This document shows positions 28,801-53,559 of a stretch of DNA of 64,000 nucleotides, one piece after another. The DNA lies in the NCBI GenBank assembly GCA_963920635.1, contig OY987305.1, forward strand, positions 23,584,876 to 23,648,875, written 5' to 3'. The translations under genes were made by a program, and so were the position numbers. Source of the stretch: Pseudeuparius sepicola (lineage: Eukaryota; Arthropoda; Insecta; Coleoptera; Anthribidae). Under the pieces are notes generated by a model. It was not told the DNA's origin. It saw nothing but the letters and a program-made list of their open reading frames with translations, and did not search any database. Numbering within the stretch: position 1 is the stretch's first letter; each line of letters starts with the position of its first letter.

Positions 28801-29197
28801 TTGGTTGGTAAAAGTTAAAGGAATATCCTCGCAATAAAAAATATCTTTGAATTCTAGGCAAAGTTTTCGAATTTGGTTGCGCTCTTCAGAATTGCAGTGT
28901 TGTAGACGTAAGTTTTTTAGATTTTCTTTTAATTTGTTCTCCAAGTGTATTTCTAAATTTTGGTAACTATCAGATTCATAATCGGAATTTTCTATAAAAT
29001 TTACTTCGTTAGCGTTGACAGGTTCGACTTCAAAGGGTTCAAAAATATCAAGTTGAATTGGGTTATCCGTAGGGTTTAAAATTGTAGTTAAAGCAAAATT
29101 ATCTTCTATATTTACTAAACAATGGGGAATTTCCATTTCATTCAATTGTGTGTAATTTAGAATACCTATGCCAGATTGTATATTAACAGGGATTTTA
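25879..29197 (-). pseudogene. pol: Pol: RT, RNase H and integrase (one stop, one shift)
   Basis: The main stretch from 28,740 to 25,879 carries RT (MPFGLKNSPSTFQRVM, catalytic YLDDIIIF), RNase H (LTTDASNYALGAVLSQ) and the ADALSRI linker. Integrase has HHCC residues (HRGIS...CVTCQ) and the DDE core: HMDTF, IVTDKGTEF, SNSPVERFHS. The C-terminus has a GPYKI-type module. The upstream part (29,145-28,741) is in the same frame and is cut by a TAG at 28,741-28,743, where relatives have an aromatic residue before the Pro. It joins protease only across a one-base shift at the homopolymer 29,199-29,205. Catalytic residues are otherwise present. Confidence 0.88.
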
Positions 29198-29680
29198 ATT
29201 TTTTTGTATTGTTCTTGGCGGTATAACTTCTGTTGTGGGTTTTAAAATTGGGTTCGGTTGTGGTAAATTTTCTTCGGTGATTTGCGAATATATCGGTATT
29301 TTCGCGTTTGGTGATTCTAAAGCTTTTTGACTAAATCGAATATCAGCATTTAATTGTTTTATTAGGTCTAGTCCAATTAATCCGTCAAATTTATCTGAAA
29401 AGTCGAAAATAAAATATTTATGATATCCTTCAGTGTTGAAAGTTGGAAATAAGGGTAAAATTGCTATTTGATCATGAAAAGAAGTAGCATGTGCGGTTTG
29501 CACCAAAAATATCTCATTTTGAATGTAATTTTGAAAATATGTATGCGCTAATTTTTTATTAATAAATGAACGTGTACTACCAGTATCTATTAGAAATTTT
29601 GCTTCGAGTTCGGGTAAATGTATATATACAAGGTTTATTGAAAGATTGTTTAAAACTATCACTTCGTATTGTTGGTCTGT
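29195..29680 (-). pseudogene. pol: Pol: aspartic protease segment
   Basis: Carries the FLIDTGSTRSFI active-site signature and a GLIGLDLIKQL block typical of retropepsin-like proteases. The frame opens upstream in a -1 relation to the gag frame, as expected for gypsy-type gag-pol expression. It ends at a stop that is created by the extra base in the A-run at 29,199-29,205, so protease and RT are not in one frame in this sequence. Confidence 0.85.
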
Positions 29681-29829
29681 CCAGTATTGGGAAAATCCAA
29701 AGGGATATCGGGATTAGTCTGGATATTAGTTTCAAAATTTTGAATTTCTTCGTTTTGGGTGTCGGGTTGTAAATAGTATAAATTATTGTAAAATTCGCTC
29801 ATGTCAAAAGAAGTATCTTCTTCGGGAGT

Positions 29830-30972
29830 TTATTCATAAGGGTTGTTATAAGTTTGTTCATTAGGTTGGTTTATGTTTTCGGTAGGGAATGATTCCATGA
29901 AATTGCTAAATAATCGAGTTTGATAAGGTTTTTTCTGTTGAGTTACATAAGTGGTTGTGTCCATTGGTTCGGGCTTAAAAGTATTTTTTGTTACAGTACT
30001 TTGCTGTGGAATTTTTTGATTTTGGAACATTGAAGGTCTCATTTGAAAGGTTGGTTTTTGGAAATTAGGTTGACTATTTTGAAAGGGTGGTCTTTGAAAA
30101 TTTGGTTGGTTATTTTGGAAAATTGGTCTTTGTAAGCTTGATTGATTTGTTTGAAAATTATTTTGAAAGGGAGGCTTGTACATAATTTGTGGAGAATATG
30201 GTTGTACGAAATTTGATGTACTTGGTAAGGATCTAAATTGTGGTGGTGGTGGAATTATATTATGATTGGCTGGTAAAAAGCTAGGTGTATAGGTAGGTAA
30301 TCTTGGTGGGAAAAATTTTGGTTTTTGGGTATTTATGGTACTGTAGGTTGGTTGTTTCAGATTTTGATTCTGAGATGTTTTAAAATATACGAAATTTTCT
30401 TCTTCGACTACAAATGACATTGCTTGCTCGAGAGAATTTGGATTTTTTAACCTTACTACCAGTTGCATGTTATAGGGTAAACCATTTATAAATGTTTTTA
30501 ACGCAAATTCATCGTAATGTGTAATTTTTACCAATTTAACGTTATTGTCTCGTTCAGAAGCATTCAATTTTGCAAAAAGTAAACTTCTCACATCTTGAAT
30601 TCTCATACCAAATTGAGTGGGTGTTTCATTTTTGAATGGCTTTAAATTGATTAAGTCTTGAATGATGCAATCGATAGATCTTTGATCTGCGAAAGTCGAA
30701 ATTAGGGAGGTTTTTACTAAATTCCATGTATTTAGTTCTGATCGCGAAGCAATCAAATCTGCTGCTCGATCTCTGAGTTTTCCTAAGATAGTGTCGAAAA
30801 TACAAATATTAATTGGATCGTTTAAATTTTGTAAATTTTGAAAAGCCTTAATAAAATTTTCACAAGAATTTACGAAACGTTGCAAAAGTCTGGGGTTTCC
30901 GTCAAATAAAGGGATATTGTCCGCCTGATATCTTAATAGATTATAATTAATTGCAGGAGCTCCGTTTGGCAT
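29830..30972 (-). CDS. gag: Gag of errantivirus-like element
   Basis: 380 codons from ATG 30,972. The N-terminal half (PLFDGNPRLLQRFVNSCENF, and the DLINLKPFKNETPTQF block) resembles the capsid domain of gypsy/errantivirus Gag. The C-terminal half is a Pro/Gln/Asn/Phe-rich low-complexity region with repeated QPNFQRPPFQN-like units, and there is no zinc knuckle, as usual in this group. The terminating TAA (29,830-29,832) is followed by about 58 further open codons in the same frame. The stop may therefore be a late nonsense change, or the natural end with the rest used only in the frameshift region. Gag assembles the particle. Confidence 0.85.
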   Translation of the reverse strand: MPNGAPAINYNLLRYQADNIPLFDGNPRLLQRFVNSCENFIKAFQNLQNLNDPINICIFDTILGKLRDRAADLIASRSELNTWNLVKTSLISTFADQRSIDCIIQDLINLKPFKNETPTQFGMRIQDVRSLLFAKLNASERDNNVKLVKITHYDEFALKTFINGLPYNMQLVVRLKNPNSLEQAMSFVVEEENFVYFKTSQNQNLKQPTYSTINTQKPKFFPPRLPTYTPSFLPANHNIIPPPPQFRSLPSTSNFVQPYSPQIMYKPPFQNNFQTNQSSLQRPIFQNNQPNFQRPPFQNSQPNFQKPTFQMRPSMFQNQKIPQQSTVTKNTFKPEPMDTTTYVTQQKKPYQTRLFSNFMESFPTENINQPNEQTYNNPYE

Positions 30973-33915: not shown

Positions 33916-33931
33916 TTTGGGGGATGCAGGG

Positions 33932-34822
33932 GAGTAGTGAGTCAAAGCGGGTCCCAGTCCAAAATGGCCGCCAAGGTCGTCGTTGTTGCGAAGTCGCGAT
34001 GGGGTGTTCAAGGTCAAGGGGCGTGGCTAGAATAGCTTCAAGGTTAATTTCCGAGAACCGCTTCAAGGTTAATTTCTGGGAATTGATGTACAAGGTCAAG
34101 GGGCGTGGCTAGAATAGCTTCAAGGTTAATTTCCGAGAATCGCTTCAAGGTTAATTTCTGGGAATTGAAGGGGGGCGTGTTTAGAATAGCTTCAAGGTTT
34201 CCGAGAATCTCAAGGTTGAATCGCGGAGGCTTAGAGGTCAAAGTGTGTGGCTTCTGGGAATTTGGGTGGGAAGGCATTTCCATTAGCCCCACCCCTCTAG
34301 CTTTGATAAAAGACAGAGTTTGCTGTTTGGAGTTCAGTAGCCGAAGATGGCTTGCAGCAAAATGGATTTGGAAACCATCAACAAAGTTGGTTGCTTGTCT
34401 CAGAAACCGACGGTAAAGTTAGTGGAATTGGAAGAAGGCGTGCCGATGAAAATTCTGTCGGGCAAGGTGGTGCAAACGACGTTCGGGGAGACCATTTTGC
34501 TGGAGTTGGAGGAGAGTGTCGTTTTCCTGCCGAACAGAGTGACACAGGCGTTCAAACCGTGCCTCGAACATTTTTCCAGTGAAAAATACGCGTTGGTTTA
34601 CAAAGGACAACTGGATATGGGAAAAAACAAGGCCAATCAGTTTGAAATATGGTCATTGGGGGAATAGAAAATTAACATGGAATTCTTCAAATAGTAATTT
34701 GTGTAATCTTGTATTAGTCATAAAACGTACTTAATAAAGGAATATAAAAGCATCATGCCTGTGTTTGAAAATATCTCATTATTTTTAATAAAGGTTTAAA
34801 CATCAGCCAGTCTTTTATTATG
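33932..34822 (+). repeat. Long inner inverted repeat, left arm (carries a gene)
   Basis: About 890 bp running from AGTAGTGAGTCAAAGCGGG to AGCCAGTCTTTTATTATG. It is near-identical to the complement of 52,656-53,549. It also contains short internal duplications of GGCGTGGCTAGAATAGCTTC. The arm includes a promoter and the 106-codon gene, so the element carries that gene twice in inverted orientation. Confidence 0.9.
34347..34667 (+). CDS. Small conserved Polinton protein, copy A (OB-like, function unknown)
   Basis: 106 codons from ATG 34,347. A TATA-like GATAAAAG lies about 40 bp upstream and AATAAAGG downstream (34,731). It has the pattern MKILSGKVVQTTFGETILLELEE then VVFLPNRV, and ends with LVYKGQL and FEIW; the alternating hydrophobic residues predict a small beta-barrel. 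I infer an OB-fold-like nucleic-acid-binding role. No family is firmly recognised. A second copy (52,814-53,134, opposite strand) differs at one residue that I noticed (Glu/Asp in LVEL-EGVPM). A divergent relative may be the gene at 41,783-42,094. Confidence 0.7.
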   Translation: MACSKMDLETINKVGCLSQKPTVKLVELEEGVPMKILSGKVVQTTFGETILLELEESVVFLPNRVTQAFKPCLEHFSSEKYALVYKGQLDMGKNKANQFEIWSLGE

Positions 34823-35361
34823 AGTAATGATAAACTGTTGTAAATAAAACAAATAATTCAAATTCCAATCTTTATTTGCTGTAAATAAACAACAATGGTA
34901 TGACTCACAAAGTAACTGGATCAAGCGATCCATAATTCGATAGCAATAAAAGACAGCAACGTACTCTGTTTAGAACGTGAAATAATAACCCATTCATAAA
35001 TAGCGGTTATGAGTCATCAGTTGCAACGCTCAATCTAAATTGAAAATTATACTACCTTAAATATTTACAGGCTACGTGCCAGTGTTTTAAACTTTATTTA
35101 AATTAAAATTAAGATTTATCCAGCGCAGACCTCGATGATTCGATGTTTATGTGGCGGTGAATTAAAGCGGGTGTGTAATAAAGTCGTTTTATTATACGAA
35201 ATTATACTGTACAGAATTTATATAAACACACTTTCCCGAGGTTCGTTTAAGTGAAATCTTAACGCGCTCGGATATAAATGTGGTAAACAGTTGAATAAAT
35301 TCAAGGAAAATAAATTGGAACTTATAAATATATTTTCATGTAAAGACCTGCATTCAGTCTA
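34823..35361. promoter_or_regulatory. Intergenic region with promoter of the PLA2/protease/capsid cluster
   Basis: Mostly AT-rich. GCTCGGATATAAATG at 35,266-35,280 is a TATA element about 85 bp upstream of the ATG at 35,362. A very similar CCCGGATATAAATG stands before the 160-codon gene (38,495-38,508). This suggests a shared promoter class for the structural genes. Confidence 0.6.
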
Positions 35362-36135
35362 ATGTTATCATTCACAGGAGACGGTTTGGTTAATACCCTT
35401 ATCAGTAATCTACCAGTTGAGTTGCACGTTCCTGGATACCAATATTGCGGACCTGGAACTAAGCTAAACAAGAGATTAGCTAGGGGAGACCCTGGCATAA
35501 ACCCTCTCGACGCTGCATGCAAGGAACACGACATAGAATATTCGAAATCTTCCTCTTTAGAGGATCGACATAAAGCCGATCGAGTGTTAGAAAATAAAGC
35601 TTGGCAAAGAGTTAAGTCTAAGGACGCAAAACTAGGTGAAAAGGCAGCTGCTTGGTTTGTTACTACAACAATGAAAACTAAACGCAAGTTAGGTATGGGC
35701 TTAAAAAAATCATTCAAACGCGATATAGTGAAAAAGGTTGAAAAATCATTGAAAAAATCATTTAACGGAAATCAACTTAATAATGAAAAAGGAATTAAGA
35801 AAACCACACTAGCTGCAATTAAAGCGGCACGTTTGGCAGTTAAAAAAGTAGGTGGAAAGAATAAAGTGCGAATCCCCAGAATAATTCCTTTTGAGGCGAG
35901 CGGTGGCTTTCTTCCTTTGATTCCAATCCTAGGTGCTTTGGGAGCTCTTGGATCGGTGGCAGGTGGTGCTAGCGCGATTGCTAAAACAGTTATCGCTGCG
36001 AAAGATATGCAGAAAAAGATGGAAGAACAAAAACGTCATAACAAAGCGATGGAAGCAATCGGATCGGGGCTTTACTTGAGAAAAAACAAGCGAGGCTTTG
36101 GTTTATTTTTAAGGAAACAAAAAAACTCCCAGTGA
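35362..36135 (+). CDS. Phospholipase A2 / adenovirus pX-like virion protein
   Basis: 257 codons. Residues 24-60 hold a PLA2 core: YCGPGT (28-33) as calcium-binding loop and DAACKEHDIEY (50-60) with the His56-Asp57 catalytic pair. The layout is close to the PLA2 of parvovirus VP1, which opens endosomal membranes during entry. The middle is Lys-rich. Residues 180-210 (SGGFLPLIPILGALGALG onwards) are a hydrophobic, glycine-rich segment like that of adenovirus core protein X. A GxGLYLR/GFGLFLR doublet ends the protein. I infer a virion core/entry protein. Its last codons hold A_AAA_AAC slippery heptamers (36,081-36,087 and 36,120-36,126) that point into the protease frame. Confidence 0.85.
   Translation: MLSFTGDGLVNTLISNLPVELHVPGYQYCGPGTKLNKRLARGDPGINPLDAACKEHDIEYSKSSSLEDRHKADRVLENKAWQRVKSKDAKLGEKAAAWFVTTTMKTKRKLGMGLKKSFKRDIVKKVEKSLKKSFNGNQLNNEKGIKKTTLAAIKAARLAVKKVGGKNKVRIPRIIPFEASGGFLPLIPILGALGALGSVAGGASAIAKTVIAAKDMQKKMEEQKRHNKAMEAIGSGLYLRKNKRGFGLFLRKQKNSQ
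36081..36135 (+). promoter_or_regulatory. Candidate -1 ribosomal frameshift region (two slippery heptamers)
   Basis: A_AAA_AAC occurs at 36,081-36,087 and 36,120-36,126, both in the phase of the PLA2/pX gene (codons AAA-AAC). The zero-frame stop TGA is at 36,133-36,135. A -1 shift at either site enters the protease frame, which is open from 36,042 and contains no ATG before residue 30 of the protease. I could not identify a downstream pseudoknot or stem by eye. Confidence 0.6.
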
Positions 36136-36491
36136 AGCTACCCAAGAGACCATTAACTAACGTTGACCTCGAAAAATTTGCCAGGAAATTAAAGTTGTCA
36201 TATTTTAGAGGTGTATTCATGAGAGATGCACTTCCAAGCAAACCACATGCGTATGAATCGGCAATTATTAATTTAGATGTTAAAAACAATAGAGGCACTC
36301 ACTGGGTAGCATATAAGAAAGATAATAATATTGTTGAATACTTTGATAGTTTCGGTAACTTAAAACCACCGACGGAACTTGTTAAATATTTCGGAAAAGT
36401 TAAGATTGTATATAATAACGATGCATATCAAAAATTTAATGAAATAAATTGTGGACATCTTTGTCTCGAATTTCTTTATAAAAAGAGCTGA
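36126..36491 (+). CDS. Adenain-like cysteine protease (Polinton maturation protease)
   Basis: Numbered from GTG 36,132, the 119-residue domain has the catalytic layout of adenovirus-type proteases: His57 in GTHWVAY, Asp72 in EYFDSFG, Gln100, and Cys107 in NCGHLC (Q-x6-C spacing). The N-terminal FRGVFMRDALP block is also typical. The enzyme would cleave capsid precursors during maturation. There is no ATG in frame before Met30, which lies inside the conserved N-terminal part. The frame instead continues upstream through the slippery A-runs of the PLA2/pX gene, so expression by -1 frameshift as a fusion is likely. A GTG or other non-AUG start, or a missing base in the A7 run, are alternatives. 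Confidence 0.88.
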   Translation, partial: LPVKLPKRPLTNVDLEKFARKLKLSYFRGVFMRDALPSKPHAYESAIINLDVKNNRGTHWVAYKKDNNIVEYFDSFGNLKPPTELVKYFGKVKIVYNNDAYQKFNEINCGHLCLEFLYKKS

Positions 36492-36511
36492 CCGACTTAA
36501 AACTATTAGTC

Positions 36512-37114
36512 ATGTCGTTGTTATTCACGTTGAAAGGCTACAACTCTGTGCTCTCGGTTGATTACAATAATTCCATTTATTTAGACCCAACTTTACAATA
36601 CGGGCTAGCGTTGCTCGGGTTTTATTCATATAATACGATACCGAATATTGAGACACCGAATAATAAATTTTATTTAATCGATCAAGCAAACGAATTGAAA
36701 GTTTTAGAAATACCCACAGGATCTTACGAAATTGCTGCCATAGAGACAACAATAATTAAAATTTTAAGAAATCTTAACGAAATACCTGATTTTTCATTGA
36801 AAGCCAATACTAATACTCTACAGTGTGAAATATACAGCGATAAATATACGATTGATTTTCGACCAAAAGATTCGATTGCCACATTGCTCGGTTATTCCAA
36901 TCGCTTACTACCCCCACTAAGTGTCCACGCATCAGATTTACCGGTGAATATCGTCAAAACCAGAACAATACATATTGACAGAAACCTACTTTACTTACCT
37001 GTCACTAAACGGGAAATAAATAATATAACCTTATCGATTTTGGATCAAAATTTTCAGTTAGTAAATTTCCGTGGAGAAGAAATAATTGTGAGATTAGAAG
37101 TAAAACCTTTGTAA
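36512..37114 (+). CDS. Minor capsid (penton-like) protein
   Basis: 200 codons from ATG 36,512, 20 bp after the protease stop. It has the N-terminal LDPTLQYGLALLGFYSYNTI block and a later beta-rich segment (LLGYSNRLLPPL; TIHIDRNLLYLPV). These correspond to the single-jelly-roll minor capsid protein found next to the major capsid gene in Polintons. It should form pentameric vertices of an icosahedral particle. Its stop overlaps the start of the next ORF (TAATG). The assignment rests on recalled family pattern and gene order. Confidence 0.85.
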   Translation: MSLLFTLKGYNSVLSVDYNNSIYLDPTLQYGLALLGFYSYNTIPNIETPNNKFYLIDQANELKVLEIPTGSYEIAAIETTIIKILRNLNEIPDFSLKANTNTLQCEIYSDKYTIDFRPKDSIATLLGYSNRLLPPLSVHASDLPVNIVKTRTIHIDRNLLYLPVTKREINNITLSILDQNFQLVNFRGEEIIVRLEVKPL

Positions 37115-37311
37115 TGGGTCTCGTTTTCGGTGAGGGTCTCACATATAAAAGTGAGTTAAACCACTTTATAAACACACTCTCGTCTGAACCTCACAAGCGT
37201 CAACCTCGCAACCTGACGCCTACACCTAAAAGCATAAATATTTTAAAGTCGCTCGGATATAATGTCGTTGGCACCAAATGTATTCGACGTGTATCAAAGT
37301 CCAAAGTATGA
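37114..37311 (+). CDS. Small ORF between capsid genes
   Basis: 65 codons, whose ATG overlaps the minor capsid stop (TAATG) and whose 3' end overlaps the major capsid start by 50 bp in another frame. It begins MGLVFGEGLTYKSELNHF and is Pro/Lys-rich later. Tight packing supports expression, but I recognise no family. It could be a small structural protein or a non-functional open frame. Confidence 0.5.
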   Translation: MGLVFGEGLTYKSELNHFINTLSSEPHKRQPRNLTPTPKSINILKSLGYNVVGTKCIRRVSKSKV

Positions 37312-38488
37312 TGAGTCAATCCAACGCATAGAAAGCCGTACTTACTATCCTTTCGTCAAGTCTTTTATGAATAATGACATCATTGAAATAACAATTAACC
37401 AGGGAGATGCTTGGTTGTTAATGTATGACGCCGCAATTTTTATTAAAGGAGAAATAAAACCTACACAAGGAGAAGGCACTTGTGAATTAGTTAATAATGC
37501 CGCGGCTTTCTTCTTCGACTCTATATCTTACGAACTCAACGGACAAGAAGTAGATTCTGTGAGGGACCCCGGCATTTTAAGCAGTATCAGAGCGTATCTT
37601 TGCTACAACCCCACCGATGAAAAACGCACCTCAAGTTGGTTGTACCCCGGGAAAAAAACTATTTTGAATAGAGATTCAACGTTTAGTGTTGGAGTTCCAC
37701 TTAAACACCTGTTTGGCATCTTTAACGATTACCAACATGCAATTTCTGGTAAACAAACAATACGGTTAACTAGAGCTCGAAATGACAAAAACTCTATATT
37801 GCTGGAACAAACACCTGGTACAACTCCAGATCTAAAGGTTGAAGTAGCCATTACTAACATCGAGCTGAAAGTAAAACATATAATACCAAACGATAAAATT
37901 AAGTATAACTTATTGCAAGCCCTCAAGAGTAATAAACCCATCTTGATACCGTTTCGCAAATGGGAGTTACATGAATTACCTAATCTGACCGTAAATGCAA
38001 CCAAAGGAATATGGTCCGTTAAAACCTCTGCCACAGTAGAAAGCCCAAGGTTTGTTATTGAGGGCTTTCAGACCGACCGCAAAGAAAATTCAAAAAAGGA
38101 CCCGACATACTTTGATCATGTAAATATTTCCGACGTACGCCTTATAATAAACGGTGAATACTTTCCGTTTGAACGCTTGCGGCAAGATTTCAATAGGGAT
38201 TACTTGGAAGTTTACAATAATTACAGAGACTTCTACCCAAGCTTTATGAATACGCGCGATAAGAGCCCACTACTTAATTATGCTGACTTTAAAGACCGGG
38301 CGACGCTGTTCGTTATTGACTGCTCACGTCGCAATGAAACAATTAAAATGAGCACTGTTGATGTTAAATTGGATATTGAGAGCTCTCAAGGATTTCCAGA
38401 TAAAACCCGTGCATATTGCATCATTATTCATGATAGAGTTGTGGAGTATTTGCCCTTGAGCGAAACTGTAAGAAGCTATATGATGTAA
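37262..38488 (+). CDS. Major capsid protein (double jelly-roll)
   Basis: 408 codons from ATG 37,262. It has FDVYQSPKYDESIQRIE near the start, then AAAFFFDSISYELNGQEVD and DPGILSSIRAYLCYNP. These are hallmarks of the Polinton/adintovirus hexon-like major capsid protein. The C-terminal half has LRQDFNRDYLEVYNNYRDFY and FVIDCSRRNETI. Six jelly-roll domains per capsomer (trimers) would build an icosahedral shell. No stop or shift is seen. The presence of both capsid proteins, protease and ATPase implies virion-forming capacity. Confidence 0.92.
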   Translation: MSLAPNVFDVYQSPKYDESIQRIESRTYYPFVKSFMNNDIIEITINQGDAWLLMYDAAIFIKGEIKPTQGEGTCELVNNAAAFFFDSISYELNGQEVDSVRDPGILSSIRAYLCYNPTDEKRTSSWLYPGKKTILNRDSTFSVGVPLKHLFGIFNDYQHAISGKQTIRLTRARNDKNSILLEQTPGTTPDLKVEVAITNIELKVKHIIPNDKIKYNLLQALKSNKPILIPFRKWELHELPNLTVNATKGIWSVKTSATVESPRFVIEGFQTDRKENSKKDPTYFDHVNISDVRLIINGEYFPFERLRQDFNRDYLEVYNNYRDFYPSFMNTRDKSPLLNYADFKDRATLFVIDCSRRNETIKMSTVDVKLDIESSQGFPDKTRAYCIIIHDRVVEYLPLSETVRSYMM

Positions 38489-38494
38489 ACAGAT

Positions 38495-38557
38495 CCCGGA
38501 TATAAATGCAGGGACATCAGCACCATACCAACAGTTTTATTCGAGAACTAAGTTAAG
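38495..38557 (+). promoter_or_regulatory. TATA promoter of the 160-codon gene
   Basis: CCCGGATATAAATGCAGG at 38,495-38,512 lies about 60 bp before ATG 38,558 and closely matches the element at 35,266-35,280. Confidence 0.6.
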
Positions 38558-39040
38558 ATGAAGATTGCTGTAATAGATATTCAAGGTTTCAAGGTGGAGA
38601 ATGAGTTTTATCCCAAGGAATTGACAATTAAAATTAATGGGCAAGTGATGCATATGGTTATAGCTCCCCCAAAAAGTTTTATGGCTCTTAACAATTTAAA
38701 TAAGAGGCATGTGCGAGTTATGGAAGAAAATTTTCTGGGGATAAAATATTCAAGTGGACATGTTGCGTATAACAAATTGGTTGAAATACTGCAAACTACT
38801 CTACTAGACGTTCACATAGTTTACGTGAAGGGACATCAAAAAGAACGTTTTCTACGTGAAATAATCAACAATAAAGTGGTTGATGTTGGAAATTTGCAAA
38901 ACAATTGGATAGAGGTGCCGCTATTTGAAAAAGACATTCCGATGTGCCTCCACCACAATGAAAATAAAAAATGGATGTGTAGCTTTAGGAATTGTGAAAA
39001 ATTATATTCTTGGTTAGAAAAATACTTAATCGATTACTAA
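38558..39040 (+). CDS. Accessory protein, possible RNase H-fold/exonuclease-like
   Basis: 160 codons. It begins MKIAVIDIQGFKVENEFYPKEL, an Asp-bearing first beta-strand followed by a KEL block. It then has HIVYVKGHQKERFLREII and a C-terminal HHNENKKWMCSFRNCEKLYSWL. This pattern, with Asp after a hydrophobic strand and then an acidic and a His-containing segment, resembles DEDDh/RNase H-fold proteins that I recall from arthropod elements. I cannot confirm all catalytic residues. AATAAAG at 39,060 may be its polyadenylation signal. Function unknown; the nuclease idea is inference. Confidence 0.6.
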   Translation: MKIAVIDIQGFKVENEFYPKELTIKINGQVMHMVIAPPKSFMALNNLNKRHVRVMEENFLGIKYSSGHVAYNKLVEILQTTLLDVHIVYVKGHQKERFLREIINNKVVDVGNLQNNWIEVPLFEKDIPMCLHHNENKKWMCSFRNCEKLYSWLEKYLIDY

Positions 39041-39139
39041 AAGTTGTAAGTTTTTACTTAAATAAAGACCTTTATTTGCATTTTGTTGTTTGATTCCTAT
39101 AAAAGAGAGAGACAACTTAAGTAGGACACACTTTCGAAA

Positions 39140-39463
39140 ATGATGTTGAGTGCAGAATACCTGTTACTTCATTCTCTGATTATCAATAACATAATATACG
39201 TCTATAAACCGTTTGACGTAAACGATGTTGCTATTTGTATGGATGATTCATTAAATTGCATTTCATTAACTCCTACAACTACCACTGATGAAGTTGTAAT
39301 GACAAAGATACCAAGTAATATCAAACAGTATAAACTTCGAATGATATTTGAAAATGGTACAGTTGCTGACACAGAGTGGGTTACACCAATTTCTAAAATG
39401 TTAAATGAACAAGTTGCAACAGGTCAATCCCTAGAAAGCGTGGTTTATTTTATTGCCACATAA
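39140..39463 (+). CDS. Small accessory protein, unknown
   Basis: 107 codons from ATG 39,140. CTATAAAAGAG lies about 42 bp upstream (39,096-39,106) and AATAAAG downstream at 39,538. It has a hydrophobic N-terminal stretch (YLLLHSLIINNIIYVY) and a Thr-rich middle. I recognise no domain. Its own TATA box and polyadenylation signal support a real transcription unit. Confidence 0.6.
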   Translation: MMLSAEYLLLHSLIINNIIYVYKPFDVNDVAICMDDSLNCISLTPTTTTDEVVMTKIPSNIKQYKLRMIFENGTVADTEWVTPISKMLNEQVATGQSLESVVYFIAT

Positions 39464-39622
39464 GTTGGTGGAAAATCAATGGATTAAAAAGCTAACATCA
39501 GTTATGGAGCTATAGTATTTGTGTAGTCTTAACACATAATAAAGTTATGAAAATAAAAGTAGTTTCATTTTTGTCAGCAATATTTTCGCCGGTATTCTGG
39601 CGGTCATTCCTTGAAAATAACC

Positions 39623-39957
39623 AAACATCTTATAAAAGCGGGCCGACGTGAGAGATCACATTAACATTCTCAGGGTTAACCATCTGTGTTTTTTAAACAT
39701 CGAAATTCTTTCAGACTAAACATCTTATAAAAGCGGGTCGACGTGAGAGATCACATCAACATTCTCAGGGTTAGACATCTGTGTTTTTTAAACATCGAAA
39801 TTCTTTCAGACTAAACATCTTATAAACGCGGGCCGACGTGAGAGATCACATCAACATTCTCAGGTTAGACATCTGTGTTTTTAAACATTCAATTGACGAG
39901 CTGAAATTTTGTCTCAAAAACATTCTCAGGGTTAACCATCTGCGTTTTGTAAACATT
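39623..39957 (+). repeat. 95-bp promoter-like tandem repeat, three copies plus a partial
   Basis: TATAAAAGCGGG/TATAAACGCGGG elements stand at 39,631, 39,726 and 39,821, exactly 95 bp apart. Each is followed by CCGACGTGAGAGATCACAT (TCGACG in copy 2), CATTCTCAGGGTTA and a T-rich TGTGTTTTTTAAACAT. A fourth partial copy (39,919-39,957) lacks the TATA part. The array precedes the three-exon gene starting at 40,261. It may act as a multiplied promoter or encode small RNAs. Confidence 0.8.
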
Positions 39958-40260
39958 GGAATCAACGATTTTGCATGCCCGAGGAGTGGGAATTCTGGTT
40001 AGCTCCACCCACTTGCACATGCGCAGCAAACCTTTAAGGAGATAAGCCCAACCCCTTTGTGGGAAAGACGCCTGCGCGTTTAGACGAAGAAAGTGTATGC
40101 ACTATGTGGATTGGCTTTTCGACACACCCACTGGTTCTTGAGTACCCCCTCAAGCTCAGTAATTTTTACACTATATATTCCCATAACTGCAAAGTTTGAC
40201 ATTATTCCATCTGAAAGTCTGATCAGTGAAATAACAGTGTTGTGCTTCATCATCATCAAA

Positions 40261-41330
40261 ATGAAAACACCAGTACCAGTGAGCAAATCAGCCCCCAACG
40301 TTGCATCTAATGGGATCTCCATGCTACAAGACTATCTTATAATAGTAAGCACTACTCTCCTAAATAAACTCTAAAGTTAATATTGCTATTTTTTACAGCC
40401 AGCTGGAAATCCTGAAATGAATCCTGAGATGGAATTATTCTCATTGTTGGGACCTGAATTAACACTCCAGCCGGTGACAAAAGGTGAGCCTCAACCCGGA
40501 CTATCGAATGCCCCCAACACCCTCGATGAATCCACCAGAGGTAACGACATACGAAGAATGCAGGCGACTCCCAAATCCAACAGCATGCAATCAGCCCCCA
40601 ACGTTGTAGATACAGGGATCTCTATACTACAGAACTATCTTATAAGAGTAAGCACTACTCTCCTAAATAAACTTTAAAGTTAATTACAAGAAAAGGTGAT
40701 AATGGGCAAACACTCAAAGTTAACAAAAAGAAAAAACTAGTAATAGCATGAAACATGTGTATGCTCATTATCACCTTTGCTTGTAATTATTACATTTACA
40801 CTCGCTAATCTTACATCTTTAAATTTAATATTGTTATTGTTTTACAGCCGGCTGGACATCCTGAGATGGAAGGAGTTTCATTGGGCCCTGAGGTAACAAT
40901 CCAGCCGGTGACAAAAGGCGAGCCTCAACCCGGACCGTCGAATGCCCCCAACACCTTCGCTGAATCCACCAGAGGGAAAGACATACGTAGGATGCAAGCG
41001 ATGCGAGATGATGATGACAACATCAGCATTTTTAGTGATGTAACAACCGAAAGTCAAGGTGAGGAAGAATATTCAAAGATAAGGGGTCAAAGTCCTACCG
41101 CATTTCTCCACAAATTAAAAGCGCAGGCAAATGTGTTTTGCAAGAGAAAATGTGGGGACATAAAGTCCCAAAAACATTTGCTAAGAGAGCAATTAAAAGT
41201 AGTGGTTGGACAAGTTCAACAACTGAAAGAAAGGGAAAAAAGGATCCTTTCAGAACTTGACAATTTAAATTCAGACGAGACACGAGTTGTGAAAATCATG
41301 CAAAGAGTGCAAGAAATTCTGAACGTTTAA
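40261..41330 (+). CDS. Three-exon accessory gene with a duplicated exon block
   Basis: Proposed exons: 40,261-40,344, 40,399-40,647 and 40,848-41,330, all joined in phase 0. Introns start GTAAGCACTACTCTCC and end TTTTTTACAG or GTTTTACAG, and splicing removes the in-frame stops. Exons 1 and 2 share SAPNV...GIS(M/I)LQ(D/N)YLI. Exons 2 and 3 share QPVTKGEPQPG and ESTRG(N/K)DIRRMQA. A block with its intron was therefore duplicated. Exon 3 adds an acidic DDDDN stretch and a C-terminal coiled coil (HLLREQLKVVVGQVQQL onwards). The total is about 271 residues. TATATATT at about 40,172 may be the TATA box. No known family is recognised; spliced genes are uncommon in such compact elements. Confidence 0.65.
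40682..40829. mobile_element. Short insertion in intron 2, related to the flanking satellite
   Basis: Intron 1 reads AAAGTTAATATTGCTATT. Intron 2 reads AAAGTTAA, then about 148 bp, then TTTAATATTGTTATT, so the extra block is an insertion bounded by TTAA. It contains GTGATAATGGGCAAACACTC and ACATGTGTATGCTCATTATC, matching parts of the ~320-bp satellite, and GCTAATCTTACAT as at the window's right end. TTAA flanks resemble piggyBac-type duplication, though the ends do not prove this. Confidence 0.7.
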
Positions 41331-41624
41331 TAGTCCCCACATTTTCTCTTATTTTAATGATATTATATTATTTTATTATATTATTTTATTATTGTATTAT
41401 AGTTATATTTTAATATACATATAATTTACCAATTTGATCATCATTTCTTAACCTAAAACACACATTTTGAAACTTAAATCTCATTAAAAAGAATTCAAGT
41501 GATCAGTGTCTAAGCAAAAACAATATTTTGAAATATTGATACTATCTGAAAGGAAGTGATAAGAAAAGAAAAGGTAGGTATACACTTTCATTTTCTACAT
41601 GAAACAGGTGAAAAAAAACAACAC
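41331..41624. other. AT-rich intergenic region
   Basis: Low-complexity (TATTAT runs near 41,360-41,400). Likely the polyadenylation region of the three-exon gene and of the converging minus-strand small ORFs. Confidence 0.4.
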
Positions 41625-41786
41625 TTACTTTTTAATAGTTTTTATTAAATTCAAATTAATATTAGCAATTTTCTTATTTATCTCATACATTTTAATTTCA
41701 TGCTTTAAATCATCTATAGATTTCAAATACATTTGAAGTTTCCTTCGATTGTACATACTCAGCAGTCTAATCTCGGAAGTTTTCAT
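41625..41786 (-). CDS. 53-codon ORF overlapping the end of the upstream gene
   Basis: The ATG at 41,786 overlaps the stop of the 103-codon gene (ATGA). It encodes MKTSEIRLLSMYNRRKLQ, then a Lys/Asn/Ile-rich amphipathic stretch likely to form a helix or coiled coil. No family is known. The stop-start overlap suggests coupled or bicistronic use, but the length makes chance possible. Confidence 0.4.
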   Translation of the reverse strand: MKTSEIRLLSMYNRRKLQMYLKSIDDLKHEIKMYEINKKIANINLNLIKTIKK

Positions 41787-42094
41787 TCTTCCAGGGAAAA
41801 TTCAAAATTCGTGGTTCTTCCTTCTGTTGGCCCAAGGCTTATTAAAAACACCTTCTGTCCACGCTCAATTTCCCTATTTATTTCTATAATTCGCTGCGTA
41901 GTGAATTTGTCTGTAAACCTTTGCGGTAGCACAGTGTAAAATGTAAAAAATTCCACAGAAACTCTTTCTGTATACTGCGTGCAAACTCTTCTAAACGATA
42001 ATACTTGAAGCTCGCATCCAATTTCTATACGTCGTGCCTTCATGAATGGTTTAATCAACGATTTCAGATTTAGTTGATTAAAGAACGTCTCCAT
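41783..42094 (-). CDS. Small protein, possible paralogue of the TIR-linked OB-like gene
   Basis: 103 codons from the first ATG (42,094). The segment from RRIEIGCELQVLSFRRVCTQ through FYTVLPQRFTDKFT to FLISLGPTEGR has the same order of features as the 106-codon protein: a conserved T-x-(F/Y), a 'LPxR' block, and a terminal glycine plus FE(F/I). I infer a shared small beta-barrel (OB-like) fold, perhaps single-strand DNA binding. It shares the divergent promoter region 42,095-42,237 with PolB, consistent with a replication role. No catalytic motif is seen. Confidence 0.6.
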   Translation of the reverse strand: METFFNQLNLKSLIKPFMKARRIEIGCELQVLSFRRVCTQYTERVSVEFFTFYTVLPQRFTDKFTTQRIIEINREIERGQKVFLISLGPTEGRTTNFEFSLEE

Positions 42095-42151
42095 TTCAAG
42101 GCGCAAAACTCACTGGAGAAATAAATGAACTCGTTAATGTATTTCAACTTG

Positions 42152-42237
42152 AATAAAAGAGTGGGGGAAACTTTACTATTTAAGTTATAACCTTCTCGGT
42201 TTTGTCTCATTGCTTTTTAATACTCACACATCTTAAA
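42152..42237 (+). promoter_or_regulatory. PolB promoter
   Basis: AATAAAAGAGTGGGGG near 42,152 is a TATA-like element about 85 bp before the first good ATG (42,238). The start at 42,238 is chosen because it is the first ATG downstream of this element. Confidence 0.5.
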
Positions 42238-45200
42238 ATGTCAGCAGAAATCGGGACGGTAAGTGATGACATTATTAAAACGCTTAAAAAAGTGTTTACG
42301 CTTATTAATAATTCTGATGACGCTACTTTAGAGCATTGGAAAAAAATAATAAATGTAAACATCCGGTTAGTTCATAAAGCATTGAAAAAGGCTGACTGTA
42401 ATCATGGCACTCGGATTAAATTGCAAACGAACTTGAGTCATTTGAAACGATTTAAAGTGTACTTAAAAAAATTACAACACGTTGGAACAGGTCAACGTAA
42501 GCGGGAAAGTAGAAGTGATAGGATAAAGTGGGAGGATATAAAATCAATTTTTAATAATCGTATACGCACGGGTGTTATAATTAATTTAAAGCACATAGAT
42601 ATTCTGCAGTTTTTTAAAGACGCGTTTTTTGTTTTTAAGACTCGCATTAATAGGATCTTAAGATCATTCAATATAATTAAAGTAAATGCTGTCTTTTGTG
42701 GGGAATTTATTAAAAAGTCTGGAGATCAGGAGATACTTGAGAATAAGTATTTTAATACAAACAATGAAATAATCGATCAAGGAACACAGTTAAAACAATG
42801 GTTTGAAAGCAATATTATTGAAAAAATTTTAGCTGCCATTGAGTCCTTCAAACATCAGGAGTCCGGTTGGACTCTTCACAGAATCTTAAGTTTGGAAGTT
42901 AACATAAACAAGGTAGAGATGGGAAACGGTGGTAGATCTTACATAAACCTCCCGGAATCAATACAATCTAAAAGAGCTTGTATTAACGTTCAAAATGATG
43001 ATAATCTTTGTTTTGCTTGGAGTGTTGTATCAGCTCTATATCCACCTGTTGGAAGACCACACCGTACATCCTCATATCCCCACCCTTCGACCGTTTTAAA
43101 CCTAGATGGCCTTGAATTTCCTATAACTCTAAGCCAAATAGCAAAATTCGAAAAACTGAATAATATATCGGTAAATGTGTATGTTCTAGAGTTAGTGTCA
43201 AATGAAGACAAATCAAGCTCTTTTAGAACTTCTCCGGCTCGCTTAACTAAAAACAAAATGGAAAAACATGCTAATTTACTTCTAGTTCAAGATACATATT
43301 TTCCGAAAGTCGGTGAGCATGAAGCTCTCCCTATCGATGAATCAACAACCGAAATCAATTATCATTACTGTTGGGTCAAACATTTATCGAGATTAATAGT
43401 ATCCCAAACTAATAAACATAAAGGTAGGATGTTTGTTTGTGATAGATGCTTAAATTATTACTCATCCCAAGAAAAATTAAATGAACATATTGAATATTGT
43501 CAAGACGTAAACAACTGCAAAGTATCATTTCCGAAAAATAAGTATATCGAATTTAAAAATTATATCCATAAGGAAAAAGTACCATTTATTATTTATGCTG
43601 ATTTTGAATCAATTCTAAAACCTTATGATGAATCACAGTGTTTAAATACTGCTAAATATCAGAAACATGAAGCTTTTAGCGCAGGCTACTATTTTAAATG
43701 TGATTATGACGATACATTATCTTTTTATAAGAGTTATCGTGGTATTGATTGCATGACTTGGTTTGCAAATGAAATGGAAAATATAGCACTCTCTGTTGCT
43801 TCAAAGTTAAAAAATAATGAGCCAATGAGTGAATCTATAAGTTTAAAAAATGCAAGTGCTACGTGTCACATATGTGAAAAACCGTTTAATTCTAACGATA
43901 TAATAGTACGTGACCATGATCATATGACATCACGTTTTCGCGGATACGCCCACCAAGCGTGTAACTTAAATTACAGAAACTCCTTTGTAGTACCCTTAGT
44001 ATTTCATAACTTTAGTGGGTACGACAGTCATTTTATTATAAGAGATCTTGCTAAAAAGCATAATGTGACATTGCTTCCAATAAACAAGGAAAAATATATT
44101 AATTTTACAGTTTCTGATACCGATACTGAAGTTAAATTTAGATTCATCGACTCCTTTAAATTTTTAGGCTTCTCGTTGGATACATTAGCATCGTCTCTCA
44201 ATAAAGGGGACTTTATTAATACCCAAAAGGAATTTAGTGATGTATCTTCAAACAATCTAGATCTGTTAACCAAAAAGGGGATATTTTGTTATGATTATAT
44301 CGATAACATAAATAAACTTAATGAAAAGTGTTTACCACCAGTCGAGCAATTCTATAGCAAGTTAAACGATACTCACATTAGTCAAAGCGATTACAGACAT
44401 GCTCAGTTAGTTTGGGATAAATTTAATATTCAAAGTTTAGGTGAATATAGTGACCTATATCTCAAGACGGACATTATGATACTTACCGATATCTTTCAGA
44501 ACTTTAGGAAAACTTGTATAAAGAATTATGGTTTGGATCCGGCTTGGTACTACACTTTACCGGGATATACTTGGGACTGTATGCTTAGATATACTGGGTG
44601 TCGATTAGAAACCTTTCAAGATATTGATATATTAATGTTTTTTGAGAAAGGAGTGAGAGGGGGGATAAGCCAATGTTGTAATAGATATTCTGAGGCAAAC
44701 AACAAATACATGAAAAATTATGATCCTAACAATCCTTCCAAATACTTACTTTATCTGGATGTAAACAATTTATACGGGTGGGCAATGGGGGAATCTCTTC
44801 CTTACGGTAACTTCCAATGGGTTGATACAAACATTAACGTGATGAATATTCCGGATAACAGTCCAGAAGGATACGTTTTAGAAGTCGATTTAGACTATCC
44901 GGAAAATTTACATGATCCCCATAAAGACCTACCGTTTTGCGCAGAACATTCTAAACCACCAAATTCTAAACTTCCCAAACTTATGACAACTCTCAATTCA
45001 AAAGAGAAGTATGTTGTACACTATAGGGCTCTTAAACAAGCGTTAAGTCACGGTTTAACTTTAAAAAAGATTCATAGGGTTTTAAAATTTAGTCAGTCTG
45101 CCTGGCTAGCTCCTTACATTAAATTTAATACAGAATTAAGGACAAAAGCTAAGTTTAATTTTGAAAAAACAGTAATTAAATTGATGGTTAATGCTGTATA

Positions 45201-45978
45201 CGGTAAGACCATGGAAAATATTCGCAAACATAGAAATGTAAAATTGGTTAGAAAATGGGAAGGTAGGTACGGAGCTAAGAATTTAATTGCTAGCCCGGCT
45301 TTTAACAGCCGATTAATTTTTGATACAGATTTAGTTGCAATTGAACTGAATAAAACTGAAATCGTTTTTACAAAGCCCCTGTACATCGGGATGGCTATAC
45401 TCGATATCTCAAAGACGTGTGTTTATAATTTTCATTATGATTACATGTTGCAAAAATATTCAACTGACCAGTGTAAACTACTTTATACGGATACGGATAG
45501 CTTACTTTATGAAATAAAATGTGATGATGTGTATGATGAAGTCATAAAGCGAGACTTGCATCGTTTCGATACCAGCGATTATTCGGTTGATAATCAGTAT
45601 AATATACCGCTTGTAAATAAAAAAGTACCAGGTCTTATGAAAGATGAACTTAATGGAAAAATAATGACTCACTTTGTCGGTCTTAGGTCAAAAATGTACA
45701 CGTTTCTGATTGAAGGCGAGCAATGTATTAAAAAATCAAAGGGTATTAAGTATGGTGTTGTTAAGAATTATCTAACTTTCGAGGATTATGCAAATTGCTT
45801 ATTTAAGAAGAAGCAAAAAACCGCTACTCAATGCACTATTCGTTCATTTGCTCATAATGTTTTCAGTATTAAACAAACAAAAATTGCACTCAGCCCTTTC
45901 GATGATAAGCGATACTTAGTTAATAATGTTGTCACTCTACCGTGGGGACACTACAGTATTCCACAAATCGAGAACTAA
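42238..45978 (+). CDS. polB: Protein-primed type family B DNA polymerase
   Basis: 1,246 codons. The N-terminal region has NVQNDDNLCFAWSVV, a Cys-bearing block conserved before Polinton polymerases. A C2H2 finger follows (FVCDRCLNYYSSQEKLNEH, ~397-420). Then come exonuclease motif I (IIYADFESIL, ~452), an embedded HNH/endonuclease VII-like zinc module (CHICEKPF...RDHDHMTSRFRG, ~543-580), exo II (NFSGYDSHF) and exo III (YLKTDIMIL). Palm motifs are LDVNNLYGWAM (A, ~838), KLMVNAVYGKT (B, ~981) and YTDTDSLLYE (C, ~1,082). All catalytic Asp residues are present. It would replicate the linear element from its ends. No frameshift or stop is seen; the length is usual for Polintons. Confidence 0.95.
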   Translation: MSAEIGTVSDDIIKTLKKVFTLINNSDDATLEHWKKIINVNIRLVHKALKKADCNHGTRIKLQTNLSHLKRFKVYLKKLQHVGTGQRKRESRSDRIKWEDIKSIFNNRIRTGVIINLKHIDILQFFKDAFFVFKTRINRILRSFNIIKVNAVFCGEFIKKSGDQEILENKYFNTNNEIIDQGTQLKQWFESNIIEKILAAIESFKHQESGWTLHRILSLEVNINKVEMGNGGRSYINLPESIQSKRACINVQNDDNLCFAWSVVSALYPPVGRPHRTSSYPHPSTVLNLDGLEFPITLSQIAKFEKLNNISVNVYVLELVSNEDKSSSFRTSPARLTKNKMEKHANLLLVQDTYFPKVGEHEALPIDESTTEINYHYCWVKHLSRLIVSQTNKHKGRMFVCDRCLNYYSSQEKLNEHIEYCQDVNNCKVSFPKNKYIEFKNYIHKEKVPFIIYADFESILKPYDESQCLNTAKYQKHEAFSAGYYFKCDYDDTLSFYKSYRGIDCMTWFANEMENIALSVASKLKNNEPMSESISLKNASATCHICEKPFNSNDIIVRDHDHMTSRFRGYAHQACNLNYRNSFVVPLVFHNFSGYDSHFIIRDLAKKHNVTLLPINKEKYINFTVSDTDTEVKFRFIDSFKFLGFSLDTLASSLNKGDFINTQKEFSDVSSNNLDLLTKKGIFCYDYIDNINKLNEKCLPPVEQFYSKLNDTHISQSDYRHAQLVWDKFNIQSLGEYSDLYLKTDIMILTDIFQNFRKTCIKNYGLDPAWYYTLPGYTWDCMLRYTGCRLETFQDIDILMFFEKGVRGGISQCCNRYSEANNKYMKNYDPNNPSKYLLYLDVNNLYGWAMGESLPYGNFQWVDTNINVMNIPDNSPEGYVLEVDLDYPENLHDPHKDLPFCAEHSKPPNSKLPKLMTTLNSKEKYVVHYRALKQALSHGLTLKKIHRVLKFSQSAWLAPYIKFNTELRTKAKFNFEKTVIKLMVNAVYGKTMENIRKHRNVKLVRKWEGRYGAKNLIASPAFNSRLIFDTDLVAIELNKTEIVFTKPLYIGMAILDISKTCVYNFHYDYMLQKYSTDQCKLLYTDTDSLLYEIKCDDVYDEVIKRDLHRFDTSDYSVDNQYNIPLVNKKVPGLMKDELNGKIMTHFVGLRSKMYTFLIEGEQCIKKSKGIKYGVVKNYLTFEDYANCLFKKKQKTATQCTIRSFAHNVFSIKQTKIALSPFDDKRYLVNNVVTLPWGHYSIPQIEN

Positions 45979-46059
45979 GCTATTGTATATAGCTAAGAAA
46001 CAATAATTGTTTCATTTAATCCCTCCCTGCTAATAGATTAGTCATACCTCCCACAACTT

Positions 46060-47273: not shown

Positions 47274-47277
47274 GGTG

Positions 47278-48222
47278 TCAAACTACATCTGTGGCCCTTA
47301 TCCAGGAGTCATGTGTTTTATCGAAACCCAACCAGCGAACCAGCACTTTATCCCCCCTCCTTCTTAAAACTTTCTCCACAAGGTAAACATTTGGATTCGC
47401 TGCTTTTTGCAATTCCTCGCTGTAAAAGCCGCCCTTTATCGGATTCCCCTGCACATCTTCAAGCAAATAAGTTATGGGTGTGGTTTTTTGAATTTTAACA
47501 ATTTTAAATAATTCCGTGCTCCAATTAGGGGTGTAGCTCTTCTCAAAAACATGCTTGGCTTTGCTGATGCGAACCATATCGCCCTTTTTGAACTTTGATA
47601 TTTTAAAAACTGTAGGATAGCTGAAGGTTCTAAGTAAAGCAGCCTCGTTACTTTTATTAACATCTTTTGGCCTCATTCCAGTAGTTCTATGTCTTCTGTT
47701 ATTGTATTTATCAACAATTGTAGATAATATATCAATCCACTTATATGTGCCATTTAGGCTAAAGTATTTAAATAATCGTTCCTTTAACGTACGTATAACC
47801 CTCTCCACTATTGCAGCTTTTGTTATGCTAAAGGTACTATAATGATTAATTTTAAACTTTTTCATGAGATTTTGAAAATGGGAGTTGTAGAATTCTTTTC
47901 CATGATCACTTTGCAAGTTTCGTGGATGCCGTTGAGAGTTTTTCAGTATTTTATCAAAGGCCTTTGTCACTTCTTCACCAGTCTTAGATTTAAGGGCTTC
48001 GCACCAAACGTACTTGGAAAAACAGTCAATTACTACAAGAATAAACTTAAATTTGTTATTGTGAGCTGTATATTGATCTAACTGGGCGAGGTCAACCTGC
48101 CAGAGGTCATCCAATCCTTTAATAATGGTCCGACGACGAGGGTATTTTTTCAATGCTCGTCTGTGTAATTCATTCACAATTTGAATCTTTTCTTTACTAT
48201 GCTTTGTTTTCGTTGCTTTCAT
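47278..48222 (-). CDS. int: Retroviral-type integrase with C-terminal chromodomain
   Basis: 314 codons. The catalytic triad is Asp44 (WQVDLAQ), Asp106 (QSDHGKEF) and Glu140 (AAIVERVIRTLKE), spaced D-61-D-33-E by my count. A YNNRRHRTTGMRP block follows. The SH3-like part has FKKGDMVRISKAKHVFEK. The chromodomain covers about residues 278-313 (VYLVEKVLRRRGDKVLVRW, LGFDKTHDSW). There is no N-terminal HHCC zinc domain in this frame. It would cut and join the element ends, giving the 6-bp duplication; the chromodomain may guide site choice. Its start overlaps the previous ORF by 26 bp. No damage is seen. Confidence 0.93.
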   Translation of the reverse strand: MKATKTKHSKEKIQIVNELHRRALKKYPRRRTIIKGLDDLWQVDLAQLDQYTAHNNKFKFILVVIDCFSKYVWCEALKSKTGEEVTKAFDKILKNSQRHPRNLQSDHGKEFYNSHFQNLMKKFKINHYSTFSITKAAIVERVIRTLKERLFKYFSLNGTYKWIDILSTIVDKYNNRRHRTTGMRPKDVNKSNEAALLRTFSYPTVFKISKFKKGDMVRISKAKHVFEKSYTPNWSTELFKIVKIQKTTPITYLLEDVQGNPIKGGFYSEELQKAANPNVYLVEKVLRRRGDKVLVRWLGFDKTHDSWIRATDVV

Positions 48223-49379: not shown

Positions 49380-50069
49380 TTACAGCTTTATATACTTATC
49401 AAATCCATTTCTGTAACGCCCATTTTTTAACTCAAAATCTTTTACAATTACTAAAGTACCGTAAGCATTATTCCAGCACTCGCTACACATAACTTTAAAT
49501 TGATCATAAGTTAAATCCGGAGACACATGCTCATCAAAAACATGACGTAAGTTCATATCATCCTGTCGAAATAGTACAATAACATTACAGTTATCGCGGA
49601 CCAGCTGTTTAGGTATTTTCGAGTAAGTCTGACAAAGATATATGACATCAACGCCTTTGTGCCGTCCCATCGAATAAAACTCACGTATCTTATCTTGCCG
49701 ATCACAACTCACATCATCGAAAATAAAAACTGAATTTTCCAAGGCCTCGGATGGTGGAATGACATCATCATTAGCTTTAAATGGAAAATATCCGATTTTA
49801 GGAACTTTTTTTAAGACATCTTGTAGTAACTGATATTTTGGCTGATATAAGCTTTTACTATAAACGTAGATATTCTCAAACTTCAGACCATTTTTGTTAA
49901 ATATTATACTTAAAAGGGCATTTGTTTTACCACAGTTGCTAGGTCCTATGAACGCAGCTCTAACGGACTCTGGAAACAGTTTACCATGCTTAGATGCCTG
50001 TCTGATCCCTGTATCTGCAACGTCTAAGTTTTCAATAGGGAGAGAGCTTTGTTGTTGCCTTATTTGCAT
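49380..50069 (-). CDS. Genome-packaging ATPase (FtsK/HerA superfamily)
   Basis: 229 codons from ATG 50,069. Walker A is GPSNCGKT (residues 42-49). Walker B is SVFIFDDVS with Asp118/Asp119. It has a sensor-like VIYLCQTYSKIP block and a VIVLFRQDD segment. This is the A32-like packaging ATPase found in Polintons, adintoviruses and large DNA viruses, and it would pump DNA into the capsid. The TATA box AGTATAAATAGACA (complement near 50,110-50,123) lies about 40 bp upstream. The length is normal and no break is seen. Confidence 0.93.
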   Translation of the reverse strand: MQIRQQQSSLPIENLDVADTGIRQASKHGKLFPESVRAAFIGPSNCGKTNALLSIIFNKNGLKFENIYVYSKSLYQPKYQLLQDVLKKVPKIGYFPFKANDDVIPPSEALENSVFIFDDVSCDRQDKIREFYSMGRHKGVDVIYLCQTYSKIPKQLVRDNCNVIVLFRQDDMNLRHVFDEHVSPDLTYDQFKVMCSECWNNAYGTLVIVKDFELKNGRYRNGFDKYIKL

Positions 50070-52655: not shown

Positions 52656-53549
52656 CATAATAAAAGACTGGCTGATGTTTAAACCTTTATTAAAAATAAT
52701 GAGATATTTTCAAACACAGGCATGATGCTTTTATATTCCTTTATTAAGTACGTTTTATGACTAATACAAGATTATAACACAAATTACTATTTGAAGAATT
52801 CCATGTTAATTTTCTATTCCCCCAATGACCATATTTCAAACTGATTGGCCTTGTTTTTTCCCATATCCAGTTGTCCTTTGTAAACCAACGCGTATTTTTC
52901 ACTGGAAAAATGTTCGAGGCACGGTTTGAACGCCTGTGTCACTCTGTTCGGCAGGAAAACGACACTCTCCTCCAACTCCAGCAAAATGGTCTCCCCGAAC
53001 GTCGTTTGCACCACCTTGCCCGAGAGAATTTTCATCGGCACGCCTTCATCCAATTCCACTAACTTTACCGTCGGTTTCTGAGACAAGCAACCAACTTTGT
53101 TGATGGTTTCCAAATCCATTTTGCTGCAAGCCATCTTCGGCTACTGAACTCCAAACAGCAAACTCTGTCTTTTATCAAAGCTAGAGGGGTGGGGCTAATG
53201 GAAATGCCTTCCCACCCAAATTCCCAGAAGCCACACACTTTGACCTCTAAGCCTCCGCGATTCAACCTTGAGATTCTCGGAAACCTTGAAGCTATTCTAA
53301 ACACGCCCCCCTTCAATTCCCAGAAATTAACCTTGAAGCGATTCTCGGAAATTAACCTTGAAGCTATTCTAGCCACGCCCCTTGACCTTGTACATCAATT
53401 CCCAGAAATTAACCTTGAAGCGGTTCTCGGAAATTAACCTTGAAGCTATTCTAGCCACGCCCCTTGACCTTGAACACCCCATCGCGACTTCGCAACAACG
53501 ACGACCTTGGCGGCCATTTTGGACTGGGACCCGCTTTGACTCACTACTC
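52656..53549 (-). repeat. Long inner inverted repeat, right arm (carries a gene)
   Basis: Complement of 33,932-34,822 over about 890 bp with very few differences. Includes the same promoter, gene and downstream sequence. Confidence 0.9.
52814..53134 (-). CDS. Small conserved Polinton protein, copy B (OB-like)
   Basis: 106 codons from ATG 53,134 on the minus strand; the inverted duplicate of the gene at 34,347. The only residue change I noticed is Asp for Glu in the LVEL-EGVPM segment. The same upstream GATAAAAG-type TATA is present. Retention of both intact copies suggests a useful gene, or recent copying between the arms. Confidence 0.7.
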   Translation of the reverse strand: MACSKMDLETINKVGCLSQKPTVKLVELDEGVPMKILSGKVVQTTFGETILLELEESVVFLPNRVTQAFKPCLEHFSSEKYALVYKGQLDMGKNKANQFEIWSLGE

Positions 53550-53559
53550 AGGGGTAGTT

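Follow-up and report, generated by a model that had tools for sequence, protein, structure and literature searches.

A putative -1 ribosomal frameshift site linking the PLA2/pX and protease genes of a Polinton in the beetle Pseudeuparius sepicola

Introduction

In the gag-pro systems of mouse mammary tumour virus (MMTV), human T-lymphotropic virus types 1 and 2 (HTLV-1/2) and bovine leukaemia virus (BLV), ribosomes close to the 3' end of the gene for a structural protein shift into the -1 frame, which adds a protease to that protein. Retroviral proteases are aspartic enzymes, whereas the Polinton protease described here is a cysteine protease of the C5 type. The adenovirus protease (adenain) has its own gene with its own start, and is recruited by DNA and a peptide cofactor. 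Here, we analyzed a Polinton in a 64,000-nucleotide stretch of the Pseudeuparius sepicola genome (Coleoptera, Anthribidae; contig OY987305.1, positions 23,584,876 to 23,648,875; hereafter the window), in which the protease is probably expressed by -1 programmed ribosomal frameshifting (-1 PRF) from a phospholipase A2 (PLA2)/pX gene. Its predicted slip site is the same heptamer, AAAAAAC, that the accessible part of PMC3835772 tabulates for MMTV, HTLV-1/2 and BLV, and the accessible part of PMC5009743 counts A_AAA_AAC as one of the heptamers at which mammalian ribosomes shift most readily.

For polinton-like viruses, a -1 slip in a virion gene has been proposed in adintoviruses, once into an adenain-type protease: the available text of PMC11071296 hypothesizes slips producing Penton isoforms and potential Hexon-Adenain (Hexain) fusions, based on KnotInFrame. 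In that proposal the slip would start from Penton or Hexon and, as far as the available text goes, no conservation test accompanies the hypothesis, whereas the Polinton described here has PLA2/pX upstream and conservation can be shown. The Spodoptera Mavericks Sf 1 and 2 also contain a PLA2-containing CAP and an adenain-like PRO open reading frame (ORF), but as separate ORFs, with no frameshift link mentioned in the accessible part of PMC5803895. Apart from the adintovirus speculation, our literature search, whose coverage did not include the founding adintovirus paper, retrieved no PLA2-pX-protease slip in print. No such protease slip appears in the available parts of PMC8097293, PMC10120064, PMC5803895, PMC8363768, PMC12567637, PMC12721341 and PMC11071308.

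Results

The pX/protease junction

A preliminary description of this locus, made from the letters of the window, had proposed that a protease frame, open from 36042 and -1 relative to the PLA2/pX gene, is entered by slippage at either of two A_AAA_AAC heptamers, and had noted that no AUG precedes the conserved N-terminal block of the protease. The two frames, their relation and both heptamers, each in pX phase, were confirmed (Table 1). Pfam detects a PLA2 domain in the product of the upstream gene, and the name pX, for which there was no positive Pfam support, is kept as a label from that description. The 3' end of pX reads CAA AAA AAC TCC CAG TGA, with 6 nt between the second heptamer and the TGA. 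The protease frame opens after a TAA at 36039-36041 and has no ATG from there to 36219; the first one lies 31 codons past the slip point, inside the folded core. In a total of 3202 codons, from nine of the element's ORFs, A_AAA_AAC occurs in phase only twice, both times close to the end of pX. The locus therefore has the X_XXY_YYZ heptamer, in zero-frame phase and ahead of a -1 ORF, that defines a -1 PRF site.

Under the proposed mechanism, most ribosomes would terminate PLA2/pX at its TGA, and a minority, with Lys and Asn tRNAs paired to the second heptamer, would slip back by a single base and go on translating the protease frame, whereby a PLA2-pX-protease fusion arises as a minor product. 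Such a fusion may deliver protease in small amounts to particles during assembly and be cleaved later; a low slip rate would suit a catalytic product. Only part of the original proposal about the site was retained: both heptamers are in phase, but the upstream one is absent in four other Polinton families of this genome (B, C, D and I, see below) and only the second is conserved. The upstream heptamer was thus rejected as the main site.

Conservation among the Polinton families of the genome

The assembly searched for copies and families comprises 769 Mb in 16 contigs. Nine families were represented by the window (A), L052 (B), L055 (C), L064 (D), L073 (E), L074 (F), L077 (G), L083 (H) and L081 (I), all selected among copies that retain the heptamer; on visual comparison E closely resembles D and F, and the survey may have overlooked families in which the protease is separate. 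In each of the nine, at least one copy has the in-phase A_AAA_AAC together with the -1 protease overlap, and the terminal Lys-Asn pair of pX is AAA-AAC in every representative. Protease identity between families is 48-76% (eight compared, as E offered no usable stretch), and identical residues share their codon in only 28-63% of cases, so that silent sites are largely randomized. As internal controls from the gene carrying the heptamer, the Asn of the RHN motif is encoded by AAC in A, E, F and H and by AAT in C, D, G and I (the motif is absent from B), and the Lys codon of GLYLK also varies between families. Judged from these codon comparisons in nine families, and from the distant relative L032 described below, the slip site is conserved beyond codon and protein constraint, which supports the predicted fusion. 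The distance from heptamer to stop is 3 nt in B, D, E, F and H, 6 nt in A, C and I, 9 nt in L032 and 30 nt in G, and the A run is A7 in the window, A8 in B, A6 in C, G and H and A11 in L032. A deletion has removed the protease core motif from L081 (family I).

The heptamer was also followed in further copies. Among 16 loci selected from 30 fetched in the family search, 10 retain it in phase, 4 are window-family copies with A6 and 2 are continuous (L044 and L058). Among 20 stretches picked for variety out of 142 scored, it is retained in 13, two of which (L069 and L072) have a pX frame broken further upstream; the altered ones have a run shorter by one (L066, L079 and L082), a continuous frame (L071), AAG for AAC (L075) or other changes (L076 and L078). 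Additional copies of B (20/20), E (11/11) and G (7/7) all carry the heptamer, and two additional copies of A have A6. The 20 copies of B are not independent because they are near-identical. With about a hundred near-identical matches (e.g., L084-L103), this second Polinton family has undergone a recent burst.

Relatives beyond this genome

Searches of IMG/VR with two profiles gave one PLA2 fragment (L031, profile A1) and one contig (L032, profile A2; IMGVR_UViG_3300046323_000841, 2291-3339). The latter is a distant polinton-like contig with an A32-like ATPase ORF after the protease, which is 40% identical to the first sequence of the query profile. Its upstream ORF ends in AAA AAA AAC CCA GAG TTT TAA, and the -1 protease frame opens only inside the A run, with no AUG ahead of FRGVFM. 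In IMG/VR, the L032 protease query matched only itself and the major capsid protein and ATPase queries gave no relative; a protein search with the L032 pX returned only a self match, and the 40 pattern matches among prokaryote contigs included no relative.

The nearest named homologues of PLA2/pX come from the beetles Leptinotarsa, Diabrotica, Diorhabda, Exocentrus, Aethina and Anoplophora. Of 2009 pX homologues, 120 were listed, and 110 of these end in Lys-Asn plus 0-3 residues. The residue preceding this terminal Lys can be encoded with a final A in 110/110 cases, compared with 605/746 for other Lys residues in the prior 40 positions. As these are related proteins without their DNA, the C-terminal Lys-Asn supports the slip site without proving it. 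Two homologues, P0027 and P0064, are continuous pX-protease proteins.

Copies of the window family

All 40 best of 1084 candidate copies align across the full 1130 bases at 99-100%, and the region 36110-36139, including the A7 run, is identical in all 30 copies fetched from those 40. A gapped-pattern search of the genome found 144 junction copies (reversed control, 0), and run lengths were counted by hand in the 100 listed: 85 have A7, 11 have A6, one each has A8 and A9, and two have a terminal G in the run. Seven of the A7 copies form one tandem array on C6 (G000:C6:46730678-46748608), in which part of a Polinton recurs with its junction at a constant spacing of 2984 bases. A6 runs were seen in the window-family copies L034, L035, L048, L059, L079, L122 and L123, and L035 has in addition an ATG overlapping the stop. 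A sublineage of 14 of the 30 fetched copies (L017-L030) shares nine differences from the window, plus a tenth in twelve of the 14. All seven changes within pX are synonymous.

Protease identity and predicted fold

The protease is an adenain-like protease of the C5 type. Its Pfam C5 match was below threshold (E 0.0078); however, a profile of 24 protease sequences matches adenain 1avp (E 1.9e-5), the best PDB matches of the predicted fold are adenovirus proteases (E 3.4e-6), and H87 and C137 are invariant across the 24 sequences. The AlphaFold model of the protease frame has a mean predicted local distance difference test (pLDDT) score of 87.7. By ten-residue blocks, pLDDT is 59-65 in the three blocks ahead of the slip region and 83-98 from residue 31 on. 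With the slip at residue 29, the well-modelled part therefore sets in close to the point from which a ribosome that had slipped would translate this frame. In the predicted model, a start at the first AUG would remove the helix 40-49.

The element and its surroundings

The Polinton spans 33933-53548 and is flanked on both sides by 6-bp CAGGGG target-site duplications, with near-identical terminal inverted repeats of ~890 bp, as expected for a Polinton/Maverick. The marker genes of this group, rve integrase, A32-type ATPase and double jelly-roll major capsid protein, were all found by Pfam. No polymerase domain was detected by Pfam in the 1246-aa ORF, whose candidate assignment rests on a motif seen by eye. 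Elsewhere in the window (8703-12626 and 24227-30972), ORF translations resemble, by eye, the gag, reverse transcriptase and integrase of long terminal repeat (LTR) retroelements.

Table 1. Positions, within the window, of the Polinton and of the pX/protease junction
Feature	Position	Strand	Remark
Left target-site duplication CAGGGG	33927..33932
Left terminal inverted repeat	33933..34822		Near-identical to right arm
PLA2/pX-like gene, zero frame of the predicted slip	35362..36135	+	PF08398, E 1.4e-12; 257 aa
Protease frame, open, -1 to pX; post-slip reading from codon 36126	36042..36491	+	149 codons plus TGA
Upstream A_AAA_AAC, pX phase	36081..36087	+	Not conserved in other families
Conserved slippery heptamer A_AAA_AAC, pX phase	36120..36126	+
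pX stop codon TGA	36133..36135	+
First ATG of protease frame	36219..36221	+	Residue 60, last residue of predicted strand 55-60
200-aa ORF in the place of the minor capsid protein	36512..37114	+	Inferred from position; no Pfam match
Double jelly-roll major capsid protein	37262..38488	+	PF21738, E 4e-69
Candidate DNA polymerase B, long ORF	42238..45978	+	1246 aa; YTDTDS motif by eye
rve integrase	47278..48222	-	PF00665, E 9.6e-14
A32-type packaging ATPase	49380..50069	-	PF04665, E 4.4e-9
Right terminal inverted repeat	52656..53548
Right target-site duplication CAGGGG	53549..53554

Discussion

The arrangement of the pX/protease junction and its conservation argue for expression of the protease by -1 PRF, and we consider it probable that a minor PLA2-pX-protease product is made in this way. 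Several observations weigh against it. A stimulatory structure downstream, which the preliminary description had raised, was not found: the window fold is not better than shuffles (z +0.71 and +1.07), the families have z between -1.2 and +1.7 except for family H, whose fold is somewhat more stable than that of shuffled sequences (z -1.8 and -2.4), no consensus structure emerged across eight families, and a crude scan script, which is a weak test, found no simple pseudoknot in nine natural sequences. Thus, no structure was placed at the ~5-9 nt spacer typical of -1 PRF sites. At retroviral gag-pro sites a stem or pseudoknot follows the heptamer, whereas none was found at the site in this DNA element. 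Such a structure is, however, a usual but not universal feature of -1 PRF. On the same side of the balance, the run length differs in 13 of the 100 listed copies of family A and two more carry G in the run; two of the three sublineage changes in the protease are non-synonymous and one is synonymous; families D, E, F and I include copies without an intact heptamer (L066, L071, L075, L076, L078 and L082); and an AUG is present in the overlap of D and F (27 nt before the heptamer) and of I (at the stop), although the heptamer is present there too. In examined copies of A, B, C, E, G and H, no AUG precedes the protease core.

Among other explanations, the one that fares best, though unlikely, is termination-reinitiation, in which ribosomes restart after pX at a codon overlapping its stop. 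An NTGA overlap indeed exists in families A (GTG), B and C (TTG) and I (ATG), and CTG stands directly between heptamer and stop in D, E and F; moreover, V or L rather than M starts 7 of 13 protease homologues sourced from the Joint Genome Institute (JGI), which fits the loss of AUG without discriminating between mechanisms. Against this, no NTG overlaps the stop in D-H, G and H among them, and the pX stops of D-H are not TGA, yet the heptamer stays, and reinitiation leaves the fixed AAA-AAC without a reason. Slippage of the polymerase on the A run, giving mixed mRNAs of which a part has the frames joined, is still less likely. The runs of the window, of B and of L032 might permit it, but those of C, G and H are only A6, and neither the kept phase nor the following C would be needed. 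Since heptamer and phase are fixed while the stop-overlap codon and the run length (A6-A11) vary, ribosomal slippage is favored over both.

A further possibility is that the true gene is one continuous ORF, broken in the window by a sequencing error or a mutated A run, and the preliminary description had itself cautioned that one missing A would give the same picture. Continuous versions do occur (L044, L058, L071 and the homologues P0027 and P0064) and the run is variable between copies; however, among the 100 listed copies A7 predominates and a length joining both frames is found in only one, the -1 arrangement is repeated in nine families and L032, and the pX changes of the sublineage are all synonymous. 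An artefact of one missing base is thus contradicted by copies and families, and this explanation appears highly improbable. Just as improbable is a separate or spliced transcript that starts or joins the protease, as might be suggested by the AUG of D and F and by some NCBI gene models that merge both genes (P0149, P0175, P0177 and P0204), because six families lack an AUG from frame opening to core in the copies examined, and splicing does not account for the fixed heptamer.

Returning to the -1 slip, a broader reading can be offered only tentatively, and we would give it somewhat less than an even chance. A gag-pro-like slip that joins the maturation protease to a PLA2 virion protein, at a nearly bare A_AAA_AAC beside the stop and with no RNA structure, might be an old strategy common to a Polinton lineage not confined to this host (L032), setting protease dose and packaging in a double jelly-roll DNA virus lineage.

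The predicted slip would have a direct consequence that could be sought, namely a junction peptide of pX and protease, and gene callers would misplace the start of this protease or merge it with pX. If the slip is real, a virus-like DNA transposon would possess a protease-dosing device known from retroviruses and reached independently, and the PLA2/pX protein would be tied to virion assembly.
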